Assembly: GCA_947044365.1 (NCBI GenBank)
Contig: OX345637.1
Location: forward strand, 7,391,701 to 7,455,700
DNA length: 64,000 nucleotides
From: Petrosia ficiformis
Lineage: Eukaryota > Porifera > Demospongiae > Haplosclerida > Petrosiidae
Direction of reading: 5' to 3'
Part shown: piece by piece, positions 7,617 through 28,189 of the stretch
Position numbering within the stretch: position 1 is the stretch's first letter
Layout: each line of letters begins with the position of its first letter
The notes under the pieces: generated by a model
Databases searched by the model: none
What the model was told of the DNA's origin: nothing
Seen by the model: only the letters and a program-made list of their open reading frames with translations
Translations under genes and position numbers: made by a program

Positions 7617-9340
7617 CTTACTTTTCTTATGTTGCAATTTTTTCCTGATTATGAATATGGTTCCAGCAATACAAACAACAGCAAGAGTTAGTACAGTTAT
7701 ACCAAATAAGGTGATGAAAATAATGAGTGTACCTTTAAGAAAAGATAATATTTATTGTTGTAATAACTAATGATGAACTAACTTTCATTGGAGTCATCTT
7801 TTCTTGATGTTGGAGTGCTTACTGAGTAAGTAATATCTGTAAAAACGATAAACACATATAATGCATTAACCATTATGAAAATGCTTTTGCAAGTTAATTT
7901 GGCCAAATAATGCTTTCTCCTTTATATTACAAATATGACATGAAAAGGTGCATATTGACATGCTTGTGACATGGCACAATGTTACATGATGAAGTGTCAA
8001 ATGCAACTGTCTTAAATAATGGTACTGACTTGTTGAAATGGATGTTGATTCTTAGAAGTAGGCAGAGCAGTGCTTGTATGATCAGTTCTATCAATTATAT
8101 TTTAATTAGTCCAACTGAGAAATAATAATTTACCCAATGATTGTGGGATGAAGACTGATTTTGATGGAGACACATTCTTGATTATATCTAAGATTAAACA
8201 AACAAAAAGATATGAAATTCACAAGACTTGATTGATAATCAGTTTAATTTATATTCGCTAAATGATTATGATGCTGACATATTCATGGTTATATCTCATA
8301 GGAGTTTGAACGAGAATGATTTAATATAAATATTTATTCTAAGTTCACTGATCTGGAATTTAGCGACTAGTCAGCTACCTTGTTTCAGTGTAACACACAG
8401 GATACTTCCTGGACTAATTGAGCCACACTGGCTTTTATTAATAAAGAACAATTTAAAAGAACTATCATATCAAAGAGGAGACTTCTACCATCTTAGAGCC
8501 CAGTCTGGCTCAATCAGTCCAGGAAGCATCCTGTGTGTTATACTGAAACAAGGTGGCTGACTAGTCACTAAATTCCCAATCAGTGAACTTAGAATAAATA
8601 ATAAAACACCTGATCGTTCAGAATTATTCCAAAAAGAATGATTTAGTAACTAATAATGAGATTTGAATATCACAACATACTGCAACAGTGTAGTATCTTA
8701 TGAGTAGTTTCAATTAATTGGAGCATCATGGAAACTATATAATGAATTATGGCTTGTGCGTAATTGTGTTGTTTGCATATTTTGAATCTTTGATGATATA
8801 TCAATCTGTTTATGATTATAATTGACTTGAATACATAAATCTTTCTAATGCCTGCTAATAGGCAAATGTCAATTATTTGAAATTGTGAAATGTGTTACCT
8901 CAAACTGAACGTATAAAGTTGAAGTGCTTTCAATTTTAGCAGTTAAAGTTTTTGCTTTTGCTGGAATTTCTGAAAATATATAGTAATCATGTATAATTTT
9001 ATTATACTGTACTTATATATATATATATATATATATATTATACATCACAACTGTATAATTATATATACCTGAAATGAGCACACTCCGACTGCTAATACAA
9101 GTTGAGACATTAGCTTCAACAGTTACAGTAATGTTATATTGATTACAAGGATCAGGATTATTTATTGTATACTCATAATCATGATCATAACATGGTAAAT
9201 GTATGATGTCCATTGAATCATTGATATTCAGAGTGAAGGTACAGTTGTTAGTTGAGGTATACACATCCCATGATATGAATAGAGTGTTAGTATCAACTGA
9301 AAATACTTGTATATTTTTTAATAAATATGGATCACCTGAA
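7617..9340 (-). pseudogene. Receptor copy B2: partial, 5' exons lost
   Basis: Recognisable exons: first FN3 exon about 9069-9336 (DPYLLKNIQVFSVDTNTLFISWD, ending SVLISG before a GTATAT donor), linker exon about 8899-8970 (AKAKTLTAKIES), small stalk exons near 8030-8190 and 7783-7840, and a TM exon about 7621-7734 (TLIIFITLFGITVLTLAVV, then RKKLQ). No second FN3 exon or third-domain exon lies between 8190 and 8899, where a 270-bp inverted-repeat element sits. Upstream of 9340 the Ig and signal exons are missing because the duplicated unit containing copy C starts at about 9490. No tail exon is seen. It is a gene fragment created at a duplication border. Confidence 0.65.
8331..8600. mobile_element. 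270-bp foldback/MITE element
   Basis: Arms of about 100 bp run from TATTTATTCTAAGTTCACTG at 8331 to its complement ending at 8600. A few mismatches and a central AT-rich loop near 8440-8500 separate them. A possible 5-bp duplication, ATAAA, lies on both sides. No coding capacity. It sits in the region of copy B2 where two exons are missing. Confidence 0.75.
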
Positions 9341-9674
9341 GTAGTAAACATTTGAAAGATAATATATATGCATGTGTATTTTGTGTATGAAAATGGTTTC
9401 CACTGAAAATTTCTTAGTCGCTCAGGCTCGCCCCAATTAATATTTGCATTAGAACACAAGACCAAAGTTGAACAATTAAGTTCTGATGGTAGTAATGTAA
9501 CGATATATTTTGGGTCCTGCAGTATGCTAATACTGTTGATAGTTAAAATACGGTAGTACAAAATAATGAATGTTAACAAAACAAACTAACTAATTATCAC
9601 ACTATCTACAATAAAAATGAATTAAGTTTGACATTTATTTCTTGAAAAATAATTACAGTTCATTGGTCATGAAA

Positions 9675-18274: not shown

Positions 18275-18654
18275 GCATGGCTATTATTACATGTTCAAGT
18301 GTTCTGGTTAGTGAGAAACTAACTGGCATGGCTATTGTTACATGTTCAAGTGTTCTGGTTAGTGAGAAATTGAATATCACTAACTGGCATGGCTGTTTTA
18401 TTTGAAATCTGTAGCCAAGTAAACTAAATCACTAACATGTTGCCAAATCCAGACTTAAAATGCTAACAAGGCTATACTTGTTCTTGTTAACTATCCTTTT
18501 ATCTGCATCAGTTCAGGTCGAGCCGAGTCGATCGCTCTAGCTATGTAGCTTGAATAATTAAGGGCGTGTCCGGCGTGACATTATTTTTTATCAAAAGAGG
18601 CGTGTCAAAGTTTTTTATCCACTAACCAGCACGATCACTAACTGGCACGGCACA
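18275..18654. mobile_element. Solo copy of the transposon right end
   Basis: These 380 bases match the right end of the large element (26833-27212) almost base for base and in the same orientation, including the terminal repeat; I noticed one substitution (AAAAGAGGCG versus AAAAGTGGCG). It abuts the ACCATC target duplication, so the full element appears to have inserted next to an older or deleted relative. Confidence 0.8.
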
Positions 18655-18772
18655 ACCATCTGTGCCGTGCCAGTTAGTGATCGTGCTGGTTAGTGGAGGG
18701 CGTATGCTAAAAAAACGTTGTGCCCCTGCCCACAATAATTATTAGTCTATTATTAAATAACCATGCTGTAAA

Positions 18773-18815
18773 ATGGCGACTTCCCGCGAAAATAGTACTG
18801 TGGTGACGAACTCTT
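18773..18815 (+). CDS. Possible first exon of a plus-strand transposon gene
   Basis: ATG in a good context (AAAATGGCG) reads MATSRENSTVVTN and reaches a consensus GTAAGT donor at 18816. It sits 110 bases inside the left terminal repeat, as expected of a first exon. No continuation exon could be identified confidently; the open stretch at 19308-19532 is not obviously related. Confidence 0.25.
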
Positions 18816-18939
18816 GTAAGTTGTAACAGAAAAAGATATTGAGGTATGATCTTTTCTATCCTATCCCCTACCTGATATAGTAAAAACCTGAGTTGGCTAC
18901 ATGAATATGAACTCTTTTGTTATATTGTACCAGGTCTAT

Positions 18940-19060
18940 ATAATAATTATATATATATATAGGATAACAATAAACATTATATATATATATAGGATAACAA
19001 TAAACATTATTTTGCCACTACAATCTTCACACTATCCAAAAGAATTATGAAATAAATGCA

Positions 19061-19104
<44 letters not shown>

Positions 19105-19270
19105 ATAACAATAAACATTATTTTGCCACTACAATCTTCACACTATCCAAAAGAATTATGAAATAAATGCATTTATATATATATATATATATATAATAGG
19201 ATAACAATAAACATTATTTTGCCACTACAATCTTCACACTATCCAAAAGAATTATGAAATAAATGCATTA
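18940..19270. repeat. Short tandem repeat with TA runs inside the transposon
   Basis: Three copies of a unit that begins GGATAACAATAAACATTATT and ends GAAATAAATGCA, separated by TATA runs of different length, plus one truncated first copy at 18960-18985. Confidence 0.9.
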
Positions 19271-19934
19271 TGAATTATGAAGTAAACTTAAATATCTTTG
19301 AAACCAATTGGAGCTAGGGAATGTTCAAGATAACACTGCAGTGATTGAACTGTTGAAATTGAAAAGGTTTCTTGAAGTATTTTTATCATTGCCTATAGTA
19401 AAAATATCAGGAGTGATAACAATAGCTATAATATGCAAATTACATAATACCTCTGGCCTTAAAATCGATTTGAATAGCACTTTTGGAGGAATGTGTTTGT
19501 GTTTTTTTGATGGAGCCAACATCTCCAAGTAATAGAATACTTCATTCACCTATATATATAATAATAATATACACAGGTGATTTAAATTATATACATGGTG
19601 TGTGAAAAGCTGAATTACCACTACTGGATGAGACAATGGCCATGTTATTGCTGGCAGTGTATCTTTATCACGAACTCTCTTTGTCCGAAGAATCTCAAAG
19701 AAAACACTTCTTTGAGGTGATGCAGCAATTTTCTGTAGTTCAATCTTTAAAATGTTTAGAATTATAATTATTATAATTCTAACTGTGATGATTGTTGTAC
19801 CTCATTCTTTTTTAGAATATTAATCATCTTAACTCTCACAATGTGTCCATCCCTAATATGTTTTAGTTTCATAAATAAAAGTTACTTATAATAATTATGT
19901 ATTTACATTCACCTTTCTGGTGGTCTACACATGA

Positions 19935-20400
19935 TCTTTTGCAGTACTGAAAAACAATACTTCCGATGATTCTTCTGGTGTGTTTTCTTCAGTTATATCT
20001 GGCATCAGTATTGGAATATCATCTATGTCGGATTCTGTTGGACATGATGGATTGATATCAGCATTACTGACGTTTAATAATTTTCCATGTTCACCTTCAC
20101 CAGCACTTGTGAACTCTGTGATAGTATCAGGGCTGGTACAGCTGTCATCTGTGTTAAAGCATGTTCACATATCACAACAAGTATAAGTGTACAGCTCTCA
20201 CCATCATCATATTCTATAGTCGATCCTTTTCTTTCTTCCCAATGCAAAAACTTAAATGATGGCATATATAATTATAATCAACAGTATATAATTCATACAC
20301 TCACTTCATTCTGAGCTACATCAACATCAGCTTTAGTGCATTCGACAGAAAGTGAGGTCCAATTATTAATAATTGATGGAAATTGATGTGAAGCTGTTAT
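19935..20400 (-). CDS. Possible small acidic transposon protein (3 exons)
   Basis: Candidate exons on the minus strand: about 20301-20390 (SVECTKADVDVAQNE, donor GTGAGT), about 20203-20250 (FLHWEERKGSTIEYDD, donor GTGAG) and about 19935-20148, joined in phase 1 (DSCTSPDTITEFTSAGEGEH ... DIDDIPILMPDITEE ... FFSTAKDHV, stop). Acidic and low complexity, with no domain recognised. It lies just downstream of the Ulp1-like stop at 20446 in the same orientation, so it could be a separate gene or an alternative 3' end of the protease gene. Confidence 0.35.
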
Positions 20401-20445
20401 AGTGTATTTATTATGGAATGTTGCCACACATACAAGCTATAGATT

Positions 20446-23173
20446 TCACCTTGACATTATTTCCTTTGTCAGCCACTTCCTAAGATTAGCCAACTCTGAC
20501 TGAAATTATTATATGTTAATGTAAAAATAGGTATTACAGTTCATTTTTTTTTTTTTGGAATTAGTTTCAATTATATGAATATATATATTATATATAATGT
20601 ATATATTTTAATATTAGCCGATTCACCTCAAATTGTAAGCCTTTGTAATCATTGTTGACTATCACAGCTGCATACTGAAATTTTAATAATAATAAATGAT
20701 TATACTAAACAAATTTCCAAAATATCAATTATACCTTGCAAACAAAGACCCCACAATCATTTTCATTTGTTTGGTGTGATTTTTCCTGAATTAACAGGTA
20801 ATTATTTACAATTAATGTATGTACCGTTATCTTTTCAATGGACCATTTATGAATATCTCTCTTCTTTCCATTTCTCCAATACACTTTCTCAAGAAGTTTG
20901 CTAAATTATTAGAGTATAGAGAAGAATTATCTATAAATTATTCATAGGATTTCAATTACAATATTTATTTAGTATGAGAGAATAAATCATTGACTTCAAG
21001 TTAAATTTAATTGGTACATTTAAAGGATCATAGTACCGTATAATTCTTTTACACACATCTATTTCCTATAATAACAAATATTAGCATTATGAATTATTAA
21101 TATATACTATAATATAAAGCTCAATGCATACCACAAGTATCCAATGTTTTGCAGTATTAATAGGAATCAGCAGTCTTCTTAATTGACTAAGCTCTTCCTA
21201 GATGTAAAACATTTGTGGTGTAATATTTATATATGCTCAAGTCACATTTTAAACAGAATTACATCAATGTGACTTGCAGTTATCTCCCAAGATGTATTAC
21301 CTCCACTGGACTGAAGAAGTGATGGATAAAAGAATGATGTCAAACATAATGTTTTACTTCTTCCAGACTGATTATATTTGACAAAAAAAGAAGATAATAT
21401 ATAACTTAGAGCTTTAAGTGTAACTCACAAGTACTGAGTGACTTTGCTCTACATTTAACAACTTCATCATATAATTGATAATCTGTGCATGGTAGTATAA
21501 CAGACTATAATTATAATTATTATAGAAGCACTGAAAATAATGAAACATCATTCTGTGCTAAGAGATTCAAGCAATGTAAGGATAGATGCACAATTGCACA
21601 TGTAATGTACCTATATATATTACCTTGTCATTCAACCATTCTTCACATGAAAAAACAAGTCTTAGATCATAGGCAGTAAGTTTCACCTCTATGTTTCTTT
21701 CAGTCCTTAGTACCAATATAATTTCATCATCGTGGACTCCTAAATTCAATTAAACTTTCATGAATCTGCACCCAATGAATTATTTACTGCTTACTAGGTG
21801 AAGATAAAGATTTTGACACTTGCACTTTCCTTTCTGTGGAAACTTCTGCTGCACATGTTAACTGTTTAGCTTTAAAAATCATAAACTGAATAAGTAATAA
21901 TACTAGTCTATTATATACCTGATGGTCCTTCATTTGTTTTAGTACTGTTTATGTCTGGCGGTACCACAGAAGATGCAGTAGCTATGTGATTACTGTTATG
22001 TTGCTGTAGATGATAAATTGCTGAAAATTCACTGGAATCGCCAAATTGTCGTTTGAGATATTGGGATAACTGATGTACAGATATCCCCTTTGCCTTATTC
22101 TGTTTGGAATCCATCAGCCATATAGTGTGTGGCTGACTTTTGATGTGAATGCATATGTAGTGATAATGCTTCTTTACTACAAGAAAGCTATTACGAAATT
22201 GTTGTTCACAATTGAGAATATCTAGTAGTTGATCTGTTGAACTTGTAGAGAGTCTACCATCAAGCAGTGATCTAATCTTAGGGGTGAGGCACACTAATGA
22301 ATCTCCATTAATCTCTACCACCTTATCTAAGACATGAAAAGCGTAATCTCCTACTGTTGAACACAGTGGTTGCACCCCGTCTGTTATTTTTAAGCCAACG
22401 TCAGAAAACTGGCTTAACCACATCTCATCAGCAATGTCATCCAGTTGATCAATACAAGAAATGGTTTTACCACATAAATTATTCAAAGCACACAAACCAC
22501 ATAGATTTGACTGACCTTGAGATTGCATCCATATTGGTGAATGCAATATGTGGAAATGATTCTGAACATTTTTTGGTACTTGATGACCTATGTCACATGC
22601 AGCATAGCGGATATTGGTTGAAAGATTGGTTTTCTCGGAGGAGCTTAATTGTGACCAAAGTTGAAGGCTTTCCCTTGCACATGTAACTATTTGTTCTGGA
22701 ATGTTTTGCTGTGTTAGACCACATACAAGTGAGGCAAGACGCTGTGTGGACAAAACAGCAAGGTTTGAAGTAGGGGACATAAAGAATAATTGCTCAGGAA
22801 AAGTTGTAGTAGCTCTCAACATTATTGAACTTTTATGCTTTCCATTTTTTTTTGCTTTTGCTCCCAACGACCTATGTGATGATTGTTTGCCGGGTGTCTT
22901 CATAGATAACATACAACTATGCTTTGATCTCTTTACTGGAGGTTCAAAACTACATTCTTCATCTTCCTTCTGTCTCTTGCTTGTATTTTCATTACGTAAT
23001 ATTTCACTCCCCATATCTTCGGTATTTGGAGGATTATCACCTTTTGTTGCAACGAAGAATCCACAGGATTTTCCGGCTCTTTCATACCACTCCTTGCAGC
23101 ATATATGTTGGCAAGGTTTCAGGAGTTGAATGCAATGTACACATGAATGTGATACACCCAAAAAAGACGGCAA
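20446..23173 (-). CDS. Transposon protease with Josephin-like and Ulp1-like domains
   Basis: A large exon (23173 to about 21921) has a Cys/His cluster (CVHC, then PCQHICC), a charged nuclear-type region, and a Josephin-like catalytic pattern: QSNLCGLCALNNLCG (Cys), later HYHYICIHI (His) and IWLMDS (Asp). It ends at a phase-1 GTATAT donor. Downstream exons continue in phase: about 21789-21866, 21650-21750 (FSCEEWLNDK), about 21431-21484 (IINYMMKLLN), about 21270-21385 (LTSFFYPSLL), 21132-21200 (LLIPINTAKHWILV), about 20960-21067 (YYDPLN), about 20836-20908, 20733-20784 (NENDCGVFVCK), about 20624-20675 and 20446-20499, ending at a TGA. EWLND, IPIN..HW, YDPLN and NDCGVFVC are the diagnostic Ulp1/SENP (C48) blocks with the His-Asp-Gln-Cys set. 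The predicted product would act on both ubiquitin and SUMO. The true start may lie upstream; TTG at 23173 is only the first in-frame start-like codon. Confidence 0.75.
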
Positions 23174-23610
23174 TTCTTTCCTGTGGATACAGAATGAGAA
23201 GATTTGGGTGTTTTGAATCCGTGATTCTTCCCATATCTGTATTCCAGATAAATAATGCGAGAACTTTAACTCATTTTAAGCACCAACAATCAAAGAATAT
23301 CTAATGGAACAATCATCTCAGAATGCCTTGTAAGAACTACCACTGCAATAGTAACTCAAAAAGCCAACATCACATGCCATTGAGAACATATCTATCAGAA
23401 AAGATGTATCGTTGACTCTACTGTTCTGACCTGAAATTTGATTCAATATGTTCTCAGGACTGGTGGGCGTAGAGTTTGGAATACTCTGGATTTAGCCAGA
23501 ATGTACTTTCTCACGTAATCTCAAACTGTATTCAGTGATGCTATCGGAGGCACTAGCAGTGACTGGCATTGGTTCGATGCAACTGCTATTAGTCGATGTT
23601 CTGCTTATCA

Positions 23611-24310
23611 TCATTCCTCCATATTGAATACATGAGCATGGGTCTCCAGCGCTATTTTTGTAATCAATTGCATATGGGGGTGATATGGTTGACCGTGTAT
23701 AATGTTTACATTTAAACCATTACACAACTCTTTAATTATGTTACTAGTAAACTCACCACCATTGTCGCTTTGCAAAATTTGAGGGGAGCCAAATTGAATG
23801 AAAATATCATGAAGAGCAGTGACAACATGTAGAGTGTGTTTACTTGTCAAAGGTAATAACCAACAATATTTTGAGAAGCAATCTTTTACGACAAGTACTA
23901 AGCGAAATCCATGTATCGACATAGCTTTAAATTTACTTTGCGGACCATACATTTCAAAAAGATCTACCTGAATTCTCTCCATAACCCTGTGCATACGGAT
24001 TAATCGCGGTGGAGGATTTTTACACTTGATTACTTTCATGTTTTGACAAGTTCCATTGCATGTTTTTTTTTACATCAATAACTATATCCTTTATGCCCTT
24101 GCAGTGGTATGTGAGTGAAAAGCGTTTTACCAGCATGTTCACTCCATCTTTGCGGCAAGCACCACCTGAAGGTCTGTGTAGATCAGCTACTATCGCCTTT
24201 GCTCGCTGACCAGACACAACGATTCTTTTTTTCTGAGCCACACATCTTGTATAGGGTCTTACTATCTTCGTCAAAAGTGAACTTAGGCCTTGTCTGACAA
24301 CTATTTTCAT
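23611..24310 (-). pseudogene. Integrase (rve/DDE) of the transposon, degenerate
   Basis: From 24310 down, one frame gives a zinc-binding-like N-terminal segment (LHRPSGGACRKDGVNMLVKRF). A run of A residues near 24061-24071 shifts the frame; past it the text resumes as TCNGTCQNMKVIKCKNPPP and then the catalytic core: IQVDLFEMYG (first Asp), LVLVVKDCFSKYCWLLPL and ILQSDNGGEF (second Asp). The expected glutamate after HGQPYHP is not seen, because the sequence diverges and stops at 23611. The core resembles the retroviral-type integrases of KRBA2/Ginger-like DNA transposons. The frameshift in a homopolymer and the missing third acidic residue suggest an inactive copy, or an unrecognised intron. 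Confidence 0.7.
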
Positions 24311-24754
24311 AAAGATAACTTAAGTTCGTTCGAGTAAACTCATCAACATCGTTACTACAATCAGGATTTCCTCTTACTGCACTACAAAGCAAATGGTAGC
24401 ATTCTTCAGTTAGAGAACCTCGATTATCAGAAGATCGAGTTCTTTTTCCTATCATAAGTATAGTGTGATGCATGAAGTTAACAGACTTCAATATACAACA
24501 AAGAATTATTGCTTGCAAATCATTCTTAATGCAGTTGACTTATAAGGAGACAATAATAGCTATATTTAGCACAATTCATACAAACAACGCTAATTCACAG
24601 AACACACAACAGTTATAATTATATTAACAACAAACCTAATTTTGCAGTCATGATCCCTCTCCTCAATGTGGGTGTATGTATATAAGTACTAGTGAACATA
24701 TAAGATTATTGTTTTAAATAAAACAATATACCCTTTAGAATGAGAAATGTACTT

Positions 24755-24900
24755 ACTATTTGGATCACAGAAGTTCAGAAATGCAGATTCAGTAGGATTC
24801 TTCTCACAGGCAGTACATGTGCTAAGATTGTAATAAAAACTTATACAGTGTGTTTTCAAGTAGGTGTTATAACCATGATTATATGAAATTCCTGTCACCT
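24755..24900 (-). CDS. Possible upstream exon of the integrase gene
   Basis: Open segment between an AG at about 24900 and a GTAAGT donor at about 24753, reading TGISYNHGYNTYLKTHC, then CTACEKNPTESAFLNFCDPN. The Cys spacing suggests metal binding. It lies upstream of the integrase segment in the same orientation; linkage is inferred. Confidence 0.35.
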
Positions 24901-24924
24901 TCGAAACAAACAGGCATTGGTTAG

Positions 24925-26960
24925 GAGAAACTTAACTCAATATCACTAACTGGCATGGCTATTAACTAACTGGCATGGCTATTATCACATGTTCAAGTGT
25001 TCTGGTTAGTGAGAAACTCAATATCACTAACTGGCATGGCTATTATTACATTTTCAAGTGTTCTGGTTAGTGAGAAACTGAATATCACTAACTGGCATTG
25101 CTATTATCACATTTTCAAGTGTTCTGGTTAGTGAGAAACTCAATTTCACTAACTGGCATGGCTATTAACTAACTGGCATGGCTATTATCACATGTTCAAG
25201 TGTTCTGGTTAGTGAGAAACTGAATATCACTAACTGGCATGGCTATTATCACATGTTCAAGTGTTCTGGTTAGTGAGAAACTGAATATCACTAGCTGGCA
25301 TGGCTATTATTACATTTTCAAGTGTTCTGGTTAGTGGGAAACTGAATATCACTAACTGGCATGGCTATTATTACATTTTCAAGTGTTCTGGTTAGTGAGA
25401 AACTGAATATCACTAACTGGCATGGCTATTATCAGTGTTCTGGTTAGTAAGAAACTCAATATCACTAACTGGCATGGCTATTAACTAACTGGCATGGCTA
25501 TTATCACATGTTCAAGTGTTCTGGTTAGTGAGAAACTGAATATCACTAACTGGCATGGCTATTATTACATTTTCAAGTGTTTTGGTTAGTGAGAAACTGA
25601 ATATCACTAACTGGCATGGCTATTATTACATGTTCAAGTGTTCTGGTTAGTGAGAAACTGAATATCACTAACTGGCATGGCTATTATTACATTTTCAAGT
25701 GTTCTGGTTAGTGAGAAACTGAATATCCCTAACTGGCATTGCTATTATTATATTTTCAAGTGTTCTGGTTAGTGAGAAACTGAATATCACTAACTGGCAT
25801 GGCTATTATTATATTTTCAAGTGTTCTGGTAAGTGAGAACCTGAATATCACTAACTGGCATGGCTATTATTACATTTTCAAGTGTTCTGGTTAGTGAGAA
25901 ACTGAATATCACTAACTGGCATGGCTATTATTATATTTTCAAGTGTTCTGGTTAGTGAGAAACTCAATTTCACTAACTGGCATGGCTATTAACTAACTGG
26001 CATGGCTATTATCACATGTTCAAGTGTTCTGGTTAGTGAGAAACTTAATTTCACTAACTGGCATGACTATTATTACATGTTCAAGTGTTCTGGTTAGTGA
26101 GAAACTGAATATCCCTAACTGGCATGGCTATTATTACATGTTCAAGTGTTCTGGTTAGTGAGAAACTGAATATCACTAACTGGCATGGCTATTATTACAT
26201 TTTCAAGTGTTCTGGTTAGTGAGAAACTGAATATCACTAACTGGCATGGCTATTATCACATGTTCAAGTGTTCTGGTTAGTGAGAAACTGAATATCACTA
26301 ACTGGCATGGCTATTATTACATTTTCAAGTGTTCTGGTTTGTGAGAAACTCAATTTCACTAACTGGCATGGCTATTAACTAACTGGCATGGCTATTATCA
26401 CATGTTCAAGTGTTCTGGTTAGTGAGAAACTGAATATCACTAACTGGCATGGCTATTATTACATTTTCAAGTGTTCTGGTTTGTGAGAAACTCAATTTCA
26501 CTAACTGGCATGGCTATTAACTAACTGGCATGGCTATTATCACATGTTCAAGTGTTCTGGTTAGTGAGAAACTTAATTTCACTAACTGGCATGACTATTA
26601 TTACATGTTCAAGTGTTCTGGTTAGTGAGAAACTTAATATCCCTAACTGGCATGGCTATTATTACATGTTCAAGTATTCTGGTTAGTAAGAAACTGAATA
26701 TCACTAACTGGCATGGCTATTATTACATGTTCAAGTGTTCTGGTTAGTGAGAAACTGAATATCACTAACTGGCATGGCTATTATTACATGTTCAAGTGTT
26801 CTGGTTAGTGAGAAACTGAATATCACTAACTGGCATGGCTATTATTACATGTTCAAGTGTTCTGGTTAGTGAGAAACTAACTGGCATGGCTATTGTTACA
26901 TGTTCAAGTGTTCTGGTTAGTGAGAAATTGAATATCACTAACTGGCATGGCTGTTTTATT
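24925..26960. repeat. Minisatellite, about 33 units of about 60 bp, made of TIR-like motifs
   Basis: The unit contains CACTAACTGGCATGGC and CTGGTTAGTGAG separated by short spacers, with variants such as TTATTACATTTTCAAG versus TTATCACATGTTCAAG and an occasional doubled short unit (ATTAACTAACTGGCATGGCT). CACTAACTGGCATGGC differs at one base from the terminal-repeat motif CACTAACTGGCACGGC, and CTGGTTAGTG is also a terminal-repeat block. The array lies just inside the right end of the large transposon. Confidence 0.95.
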
Positions 26961-28189
26961 TGAAATCTGTAGCCAAGTAAACTAAATCACTAACATGTTG
27001 CCAAATCCAGACTTAAAATGCTAACAAGGCTATACTTGTTCTTGTTAACTATCCTTTTATCTGCATCAGTTCAGGTCGAGCCGAGTCGATCGCTCTAGCT
27101 ATGTAGCTTGAATAATTAAGGGCGTGTCCGGCGTGACATTATTTTTTATCAAAAGTGGCGTGTCAAAGTTTTTTATCCACTAACCAGCACGATCACTAAC
27201 TGGCACGGCACAACCATCATGTTAGTTACAATTGATAATGTATTGACTTACTCAGGATAAATGGTTCTGAGATTGCTTGACCCAGTATACTATGAGATAT
27301 AGCAAAGATCTGATAGAATGTGTTGTCGTTCAAGAGAACATGCCATTCAAATTGATAGGTTCCATTGATATCATCAATATCCTTCCATAATATGAGACCT
27401 GATGACTGAGTGTCTTTCCCATTGTAATCAACTAGGAATACTTCAAGTTTGTTTGGTATATTAACAGCACAAAGAGTACTATAGACCTGAATATAATGAA
27501 GCAACAACGTACAATCTCATGAACATAATTATAATGTAATTATATTACGAAACTTAAGGATGGCTTACATATAATTATTCTGTTTGGATATTTTATATTC
27601 ATTGAATGATTAAGTTCACACTGTGAAAGTGTTTCTAATACACAATAATAGCTGAATGCCTGTATGTGTAGCAAATGAAATCATCAAACAACTAACCTCA
27701 AACTGAACAATCAAAGTTGAATTGCTTTCAATTATAGTATTTAAATTCCTTGCTTTTGCTGGAGATACCAACAGTGAATTAAGAATATATGTAATTGGAA
27801 ATAATAAAACATGTGGCGGCAATTCCGAATTTATGTATTATATAAATTATACCTGGAATTAGCACACTCCTACTGTCAATACAAGTTGAGACATTAGTTT
27901 CAAAAGTTAGAGTAATGTTATATTGATTAAAGGGATTGAGATCATTTAATGTATACTCATAATCATGATCATAACATGGTAAATGTATGGTGTCTATTGA
28001 GTGAAAAAAATCAATGATCTTCAGAGTGAAGGTATAGTTGTTAGTTGAAGTATATGCATCCCACGATATAAAGAGAGTGTTAATATCAACTGAAAATGCT
28101 ACATCATTCACTAAATGTGATTCACCTGCAGTAGTAAACATTTTAAGGTAGGATAGTATTATATGTACATGTGTCTAAAATGATGCCCA

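Follow-up and report, generated by a model that had tools for sequence, protein, structure and literature searches.

Known transposons with ubiquitin- and SUMO-type proteases

OTU, Ulp1 and VTD domains have already been described in transposons (PMC2836005, PMC9741609). In Ginger1 (Bao, Kapitonov and Jurka 2010) the transposase has a C-terminal OTU or Ulp1 domain, which the authors suggest functions in repair of transposition damage (PMC2836005). Among Helitrons with a VTD deubiquitinase domain, 121 carry OTU too, and the authors propose that transposition proteins are shielded from degradation (PMC9741609). Two deubiquitinase-class domains per transposon are therefore not new, and the statement in a preliminary description of the DNA studied here, that transposons carry such domains singly, was too strong. 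Here we analyze a stretch of 64,000 nucleotides from Petrosia ficiformis (contig OX345637.1), referred to here as the window and numbered from its first letter, which contains an 8,552-bp DNA transposon with terminal inverted repeats (TIRs) at 18661..27212 and its gene on the minus strand. The account that we favor, with moderate confidence, is that the region first described (20446..23173) is the 3' part of a cut-and-paste TIR transposase gene in which an integrase-Josephin frame is followed by spliced Ulp1 exons, the latter having been captured.

The placement of these exons in a transposon, as proposed in the preliminary description, is borne out by TIRs, target-site duplications (TSDs) and copies elsewhere. 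The 37-bp TIRs lie at 18661..18697 (TGTGCC..., plus strand) and 27176..27212 (...GGCACA, minus strand) and are flanked by accatc on both sides (18655..18660 and 27213..27218). In the assembly searched (191 Mb, 29 contigs), the 61-base left end of the element has 37 matches, right ends counted too, and the Josephin exon has matches at at least 14 loci, the window among them and one being a 39-residue scrap. We scanned the window and 20 loci (some overlapping) for TIRs, allowing mismatches, and found 11 copies with both ends in the fetched stretch, 7 of which have matching flanks. These TSDs are 6 bp in the window, L021 and L027 (accatc, ctaagt, ctagtg) and 5 bp in L023, L024, L025 and L037 (ataac, aaggt, cctgg, ctggg); in the remaining four two-ended copies (L022, L029 and two within L036) no flank match was found. 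We also considered a host SENP gene struck by a transposon and rejected it, since copies of the element at other loci contain the Ulp1 exons at the matching position.

Similar to Ginger1, the element combines a Gypsy-integrase-like transposase, a ubiquitin/SUMO cysteine protease domain, TIRs and TGT ends, and some Ginger1 elements have introns (PMC2836005). In the element, the integrase core (rve) is followed downstream by Ulp1 exons, which a predicted splice would join to it in the manner of Ginger1. Unlike Ginger1, which has a 4-bp CCGG or CCGT TSD and TGTNR ends (PMC2836005), the element has a TSD of 5 or 6 bp, none of them CCGG or CCGT, and a 5' end of TGTGC, and its protease part consists of Josephin plus Ulp1. 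The GPY/F and YPYY motifs of Ginger1 were not seen by eye in alignment A3 (no profile was used), and the word 'josephin' does not occur in the main text of PMC2836005. With Ginger2/Tdd the element shares an integrase-type transposase and TGT ends (PMC2836005). The Ginger2/Tdd TSD is 4 bp, or 5 bp in TDD-4/5 (PMC2836005), compared with 5 bp in four, 6 bp in three and none in four of our 11 copies, and the TGTNR end and RTATAY target of Ginger2/Tdd are unmatched by the element (PMC2836005; for TSD lengths of related superfamilies, see PMC10045372). For Ginger2, the portion of PMC2836005 consulted does not name a protease domain. The element fits neither the TSD and end patterns of Ginger1 nor the end and target patterns of Ginger2, and we treat it as a separate lineage among integrase-type DNA transposons. 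The Helitrons that have both VTD and OTU resemble it in having two deubiquitinase-class domains in a transposon protein, while they differ in being rolling-circle elements with two ubiquitin-type proteases and, in the text consulted, no Josephin named (PMC9741609). In the open-access literature, none of the titles among the matches listed dealt with a transposon that has a Josephin domain, and the one paper matching 'Josephin domain' together with transposase is on USP25.

A predicted Josephin domain built into the transposase

The integrase (rve) core lies at 23614..24069 on the minus strand (PF00665, 3.7e-15), just upstream of the Josephin frame and on the same strand. It contains QVDL (23970) and SDNGGEF (23769), the first two expected Asp of the DDE site; we take the residues of QVDL, SDNGGEF and QVENLNG to form this putative site. 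The segment bearing the expected third catalytic residue (i.e., the E of QVENLNG in L022) is missing from the window, and L022 holds 667 bp extra between window positions 23674 and 23675. The 3' part of exon 1 (21919..23275, minus strand) encodes a Cys/His-rich motif (SHxCxxC..CxHxCC..C), a basic linker, a helical stretch and the Josephin domain, and it ends in a phase-1 donor (G|GTATAT); the open frame that carries the Josephin domain is 23275..21911. In the window a stop codon stands between the integrase and Josephin parts. L023 reads through there, with one open frame from the C-terminal part of the integrase through the Cys/His-rich motif to Josephin, which a deletion then shortens. In L022 the integrase frame extends for 707 aa up to the Cys/His-rich motif, where the frame changes. 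The 1.25-kb exon earlier described as Josephin-like does contain a Josephin domain, but this stretch is the 3' portion of a longer exon, at the start of which lies the integrase.

We found that related proteins hold the same pair of domains. Three of them (P0011, 1201 aa; P0014, 1136 aa; P0015, 1069 aa) contain PF00665 and PF02099 in a single frame, with Josephin scores of 24.7-25.1 bits, just below the cut-off of 26; P0011 matches the first half only of the PF02099 profile. In P0004 (755 aa), the C-terminal part of the integrase is followed by the Cys/His motif and a Josephin domain at 45 bits, and P0008 (integrase) and P0003 (Josephin), which are encoded on contigs of equal length (4,663,597), overlap in one stretch such that the end of one is the start of the other. 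The Josephin parts of the relatives are 27-39% identical to that of the window (alignment A4). Because these relatives hold integrase and Josephin in one frame, the Josephin domain is, as judged from protein sequence, built into the transposase lineage, and integrase-Josephin is the portion common to other families. The fusion first described as Josephin plus Ulp1 does have both domains, but it is better described as integrase-Josephin-Ulp1, with integrase-Josephin being the shared part. The final homologue search scored the 7,993 candidates with the most shared words, and a scan of IMG/VR with alignment A5 (integrase-Josephin and integrase proteins) gave 95 stretches that fit the pattern and no relatives.

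The Josephin assignment is supported by profile, conserved residues and predicted fold. The window domain matches PF02099 with an E value of 7.1e-6 and 26.4 bits, and higher scores were obtained for L021 (30.7), P0003 (41.7), P0004 (45.0), P0005 (39.7), P0006 (35.9) and P0007 (42.5). The known Josephin family has a catalytic Q-C-H-N/D pattern. The predicted catalytic residues of the window (first codon base, minus strand) are Gln 22525 or 22519, Cys 22501, His 22162 and Asp 22111, and either of the two Gln may be the catalytic one. In alignment A4, both Gln and the Cys are present in nine of nine rows, and the His and Asp in all seven rows that reach that site. Like A2, A4 includes incomplete proteins, of which P0005 and P0006 do not cover the His and Asp. 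Structure modelling of the first domain, one of the tests that the preliminary description had named as able to refute its claim, returned a Josephin fold at 22001..22603 (pLDDT 74, pTM 0.73). This was the second of two models, built from a shorter segment with three homologues added, and the first (251 aa, 6 rows, pLDDT 44.7) was not used. The structures nearest to the model are chains of ataxin-3 and Josephin-2 (PDB 3o65, 1yzb, 6pgv), among them two solved with ubiquitin, and a PDB sequence search with the Josephin part gave no match. The fold is thus common to ataxin-3, Josephin-2 and the element, the first two being host proteins without an integrase. These data support a Josephin domain of deubiquitinase type, with activity predicted. 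At C7:3704862-3737082 (minus strand), the assembly (G000) also has a run of four short Josephin matches, of which one exceeds the cut-off. They are probably its own multi-exon Josephin gene; by contrast, the Josephin domain of the element is intronless.

SENP1/2-type exons downstream of the Josephin domain

Downstream on the minus strand follow ten small exons, whose borders, including the likely donors of exons 5 and 7, were taken from the alignment of copies. Throughout, copy comparisons (alignment, exon integrity and substitutions) cover the window and 11 loci (12 copies) of the at least 14, with gapped sites skipped. Exon 2 (21795..21848, 54 nt, phase 1/1) has both splice sites intact in nine of the ten copies that hold it whole. 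Exon 3 (21624..21739) encodes DDEIILVL and the EEWLND block and is followed by exon 4 (21429..21482) and exon 5 (21263..21367), which carries the SFFYP...W block and runs to 21263, not to the end first assigned to it. The expected catalytic residues are His 21146 in exon 6 (21132..21197, LIPINTAKHW), Asp 21029 in exon 7 (20984..21065, RYYDPLN), and Gln 20775 and Cys 20757 in exon 9 (20735..20785, HQTNENDCGVFVC), with exon 8 at 20825..20900, exon 10 at 20627..20674 and exon 11, which includes the stop codon, at 20446..20499. DDEIILVL (21739-21700), just before the Ulp1 domain, resembles a SUMO-interacting motif by eye, and P0011 ends in DDEGIIII, for which a G|GTATA donor left unspliced is another possible reading.

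In L022, exons 2-11 together with one base from exon 1 form an open frame of 717 nt that ends in a stop, with GT-AG at all junctions. The 238-aa product matches PF02902 at 7e-19 and 69 bits (cut-off 20.7) and SENP1 at 4.5e-16 over nearly the whole catalytic domain, and AKHW, YYDP and HQTN.NDC (His-Asp-Gln-Cys) are kept in alignment to SENP1. Since splicing of L022 gives one 238-aa frame with such a score, the Ulp1 exons are not a chance match, and all of the Ulp1 blocks named in the preliminary description were recovered. In the window, exons 2-7 joined in frame match PF02902 at 2.6e-9 (37.7 bits) and exons 9-11 at 0.0027 (18 bits, under the cut-off). The window is without 17 bp at exon 7 (approximately 20984/20983), including the splice donor that is kept in nine of nine other aligned copies, and as a result its Cys exon is not joinable in frame at that site. 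The window copy is a dead descendant, given its integrase deletion, the stop before Josephin and the lost exon 7 donor.

Our data support an Ulp1 module of SENP1/2 type, with SUMO protease activity predicted. The element resembles SENP1 and SENP2 over nearly the whole catalytic domain and in the intron positions of a host SENP1-like gene (see below), and differs in that its exons sit in a transposon, after an integrase and a Josephin domain. One may ask whether Ulp1, and perhaps Josephin too, processes the transposase polyprotein itself rather than host modifiers. We regard this as improbable, considering that Ulp1 is SENP1/2-like along its length with the intron pattern of a host SENP, and that the chains closest to the Josephin model are those of ataxin-3 and Josephin-2, including the two solved with ubiquitin. 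PF02902 is matched at 54 other places in the assembly. Many of these matches lie within one open frame of 140-490 aa, and they are perhaps further Ulp1-bearing elements.

Intron positions and probable capture of the Ulp1 module

We compared the introns of the element with those of L040, a gene on contig C15 of the same assembly in which five spliced exons form a SENP1-like domain. The introns of L040 interrupt WLNDE|IIN, RWTKK|IDL, VL(S)|, ECCK|DIPEQ and FTCM|, and those of the element interrupt WLNDK|IIN, SHID|EEL, YPI(S)|, EKI[TM]|EKSHQ and FVCK|, in both cases in phases 0, 0, 2, 0 and 0. Counted by hand in residues from the nearest conserved residue, four of the five positions are exact. 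For example, the second intron lies 11 residues before the P of LPVH in L040 and the P of IPIN in the element, and the fourth lies 10 residues before the Cys in both. The phase-2 intron has the same phase and splits a Ser codon in both genes, but its distance to the catalytic Asp is greater by 4 residues. The element has three additional introns, of which those between exons 4/5 and exons 6/7 are inside the mapped region and that between exons 10/11 is outside. The chance of at least four of five exact positions is approximately 8e-8 under uniform placement in an assumed 570 slots. Because the intron positions of a SENP1-type gene are kept, the module was probably captured as genomic DNA of such a gene with its introns retained, and not as cDNA, as judged by comparison with one host gene ('host' meaning a gene of this assembly). 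The claim covers a SENP1-type gene and not L040 as the actual donor. A second SENP-like gene of the assembly, L041 (C8:130000-137000), has SENP1-like exons as well.

One product or two, and the evidence for constraint

We infer the splice between Josephin and Ulp1 from phase-matched GT-AG sites. The preliminary description had proposed a phase-1 joining, and phase-compatible splice sites were indeed found, but at other positions, with the donor after 21919, exon 2 at 21848-21795 and exon 3 at 21739-21624. The exon-1 donor GTATA is kept in all 11 of the 12 compared copies that hold the site. With a donor in phase 1, a phase 1/1 exon 2 and a phase-1 start of exon 3, the frame is kept whether exon 2 is included or skipped.

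Several observations weigh against a single integrase-Josephin-Ulp1 protein in use by the element. First, in both the window and L022 an ATG within intron 1 is in frame with exon 2, which makes a separate Ulp1 start possible and led us to drop an earlier argument that Ulp1 lacks its own start codon. Second, L025, L026, L027 and L031 have in common 4 bp inserted into exon 1 upstream of the donor, which would shift the Ulp1 frame. Third, no Ulp1 domain was found in the homologues checked (Pfam annotations of 2, 7 and 15 proteins, and hmmscan of P0003-P0012, P0014-P0016 and P0022, with P0013 and P0017-P0021 judged by precomputed Pfam annotation alone), and the double enzyme is therefore known from one genome. 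Fourth, none of the 12 copies is intact, and the sole copy with an open Ulp1, L022, is frame-shifted between integrase and Josephin. Fifth, exon 1 shows little constraint among the copies of this genome. We scored near-fixed differences, i.e., sites at which L021/L022 differ from the base common to at least 80% of the other copies, and found 27/1351 in exon 1 compared to 22/709 in the introns, which is not significantly fewer (p 0.13). Between L022 and the majority of the others, with exon 7 entered 14 bases short in the computation, the pN/pS of exon 1 is 0.80 (27 nonsynonymous and 9 synonymous changes), and the Josephin part has 7 nonsynonymous changes and 1 synonymous. The case for constraint on Josephin consequently rests on the diverged homologues and not on the copies of this genome.

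The in-frame ATG raises the question of whether there are two products, with integrase-Josephin ending at its own stop behind the donor and Ulp1 made from a separate transcript that starts at this ATG. The exon-1 frame does close two or three codons past the donor, and the other integrase-Josephin frames end at most about 110 residues after Josephin, without Ulp1. Against this stand the conservation of the donor and of both exon 2 sites noted above and the compatible phases, though a phase match alone has a one in three chance. On balance, we think that two products are rather unlikely.

The broken copies and the Ulp1-free relatives likewise suggest that the Ulp1 exons could be passenger cargo, i.e., a captured piece of a gene with no use in transposition, given that Ulp1 frames are broken or truncated in 11 of the 12 copies. 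However, near-fixed differences are fewer in the Ulp1 exons than in the introns (8/696; p 0.015), and the Ulp1 pN/pS between subfamilies (L022 and the majority of the others, again with exon 7 entered 14 bases short) is 0.26, on eight changes (4 and 4). Furthermore, L022 retains all four expected catalytic residues (His, Asp, Gln and Cys). We therefore hold passenger cargo to be unlikely, and favor an Ulp1 module that was captured and joined by splicing to the integrase-Josephin frame.

Proposed role of the two proteases

In the mechanism that we consider, a DDE integrase is fused in frame to a Josephin domain of deubiquitinase type, as in the single open frames of the relatives, and nine small SENP1/2-type Ulp1 exons and one linker exon would be spliced on from the phase-1 donor that shortly precedes the stop after Josephin. 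The transposase would in this way supply both a deubiquitinase and a SUMO protease to its own DNA and the complexes that it forms. It would thereby be spared ubiquitin-driven turnover, and SUMO, along with ubiquitin, would be stripped from factors of repair or silencing at the element. As judged from sequence, it is most likely that the transposase would carry its own deubiquitinase to remain stable on DNA and that the added SENP module would remove SUMO from factors at the element ends. Since the exon-1 frame closes just past the donor, retention of intron 1 would give integrase-Josephin alone, and its splicing would give the double enzyme. The full proposal, that one protein erases both ubiquitin and SUMO where it is bound, that a host-type SUMO protease was recruited with its introns, and that intron-1 retention serves as a switch, is tentative.

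A protein aimed at two modifiers would make the role of OTU, Ulp1 and VTD domains in transposons a testable question. SUMO was reported to matter in silencing (PMC8131101), and it may be asked whether removal of ubiquitin and SUMO is needed for transposition or for escape from silencing. If the proposal is true, ubiquitin- and SUMO-type proteases beside a transposase would offer transposons a new means of interfering with host controls. Fusion of Josephin to an integrase in several diverged families shows that a further protease class was recruited to the same place, and the intron-retaining capture of a SENP-type module would clearly illustrate how a transposon can acquire exons.

Further features of the element and its copies

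Beside the integrase end, Tandem Repeats Finder located an array of approximately 61-bp units at 24945..26952, with a core that is TIR-like by eye (ACTAACTGGCATGGC ... GGTTAGTG). This putative array is perhaps an internal array of transposase-binding sites. Five copies (L025, L026, L027, L030 and L031) match the window only to approximately 23310 on the integrase side; their integrase is gone, their Josephin and Ulp1 stretches partly remain in decayed form, and they are perhaps a non-autonomous subfamily. A second right-end fragment of the element at 18275-18656, directly left of the window copy and adjoining the same accatc, is a tandem or recombination product.

Approximately 1.8 kb of the element lies downstream of Ulp1 (18661-20440) and includes an acidic open reading frame (ORF) at 19928-20164 (minus strand) and near-identical direct repeats of approximately 96-111 bp at 18978-19269. 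No Pfam match was found for the ORFs at 19928-20164 and 19328-19549. Adjoining the element, an ORF at 27782-28174 (minus strand) has a weak fibronectin type III match (E 0.086, below the cut-off) and is perhaps an exon of a host gene. In L028, a 213-aa open frame lies beside the copy of the element (8845-9486, plus strand), and we take it to resemble a transposase of the P-element/THAP9 type.
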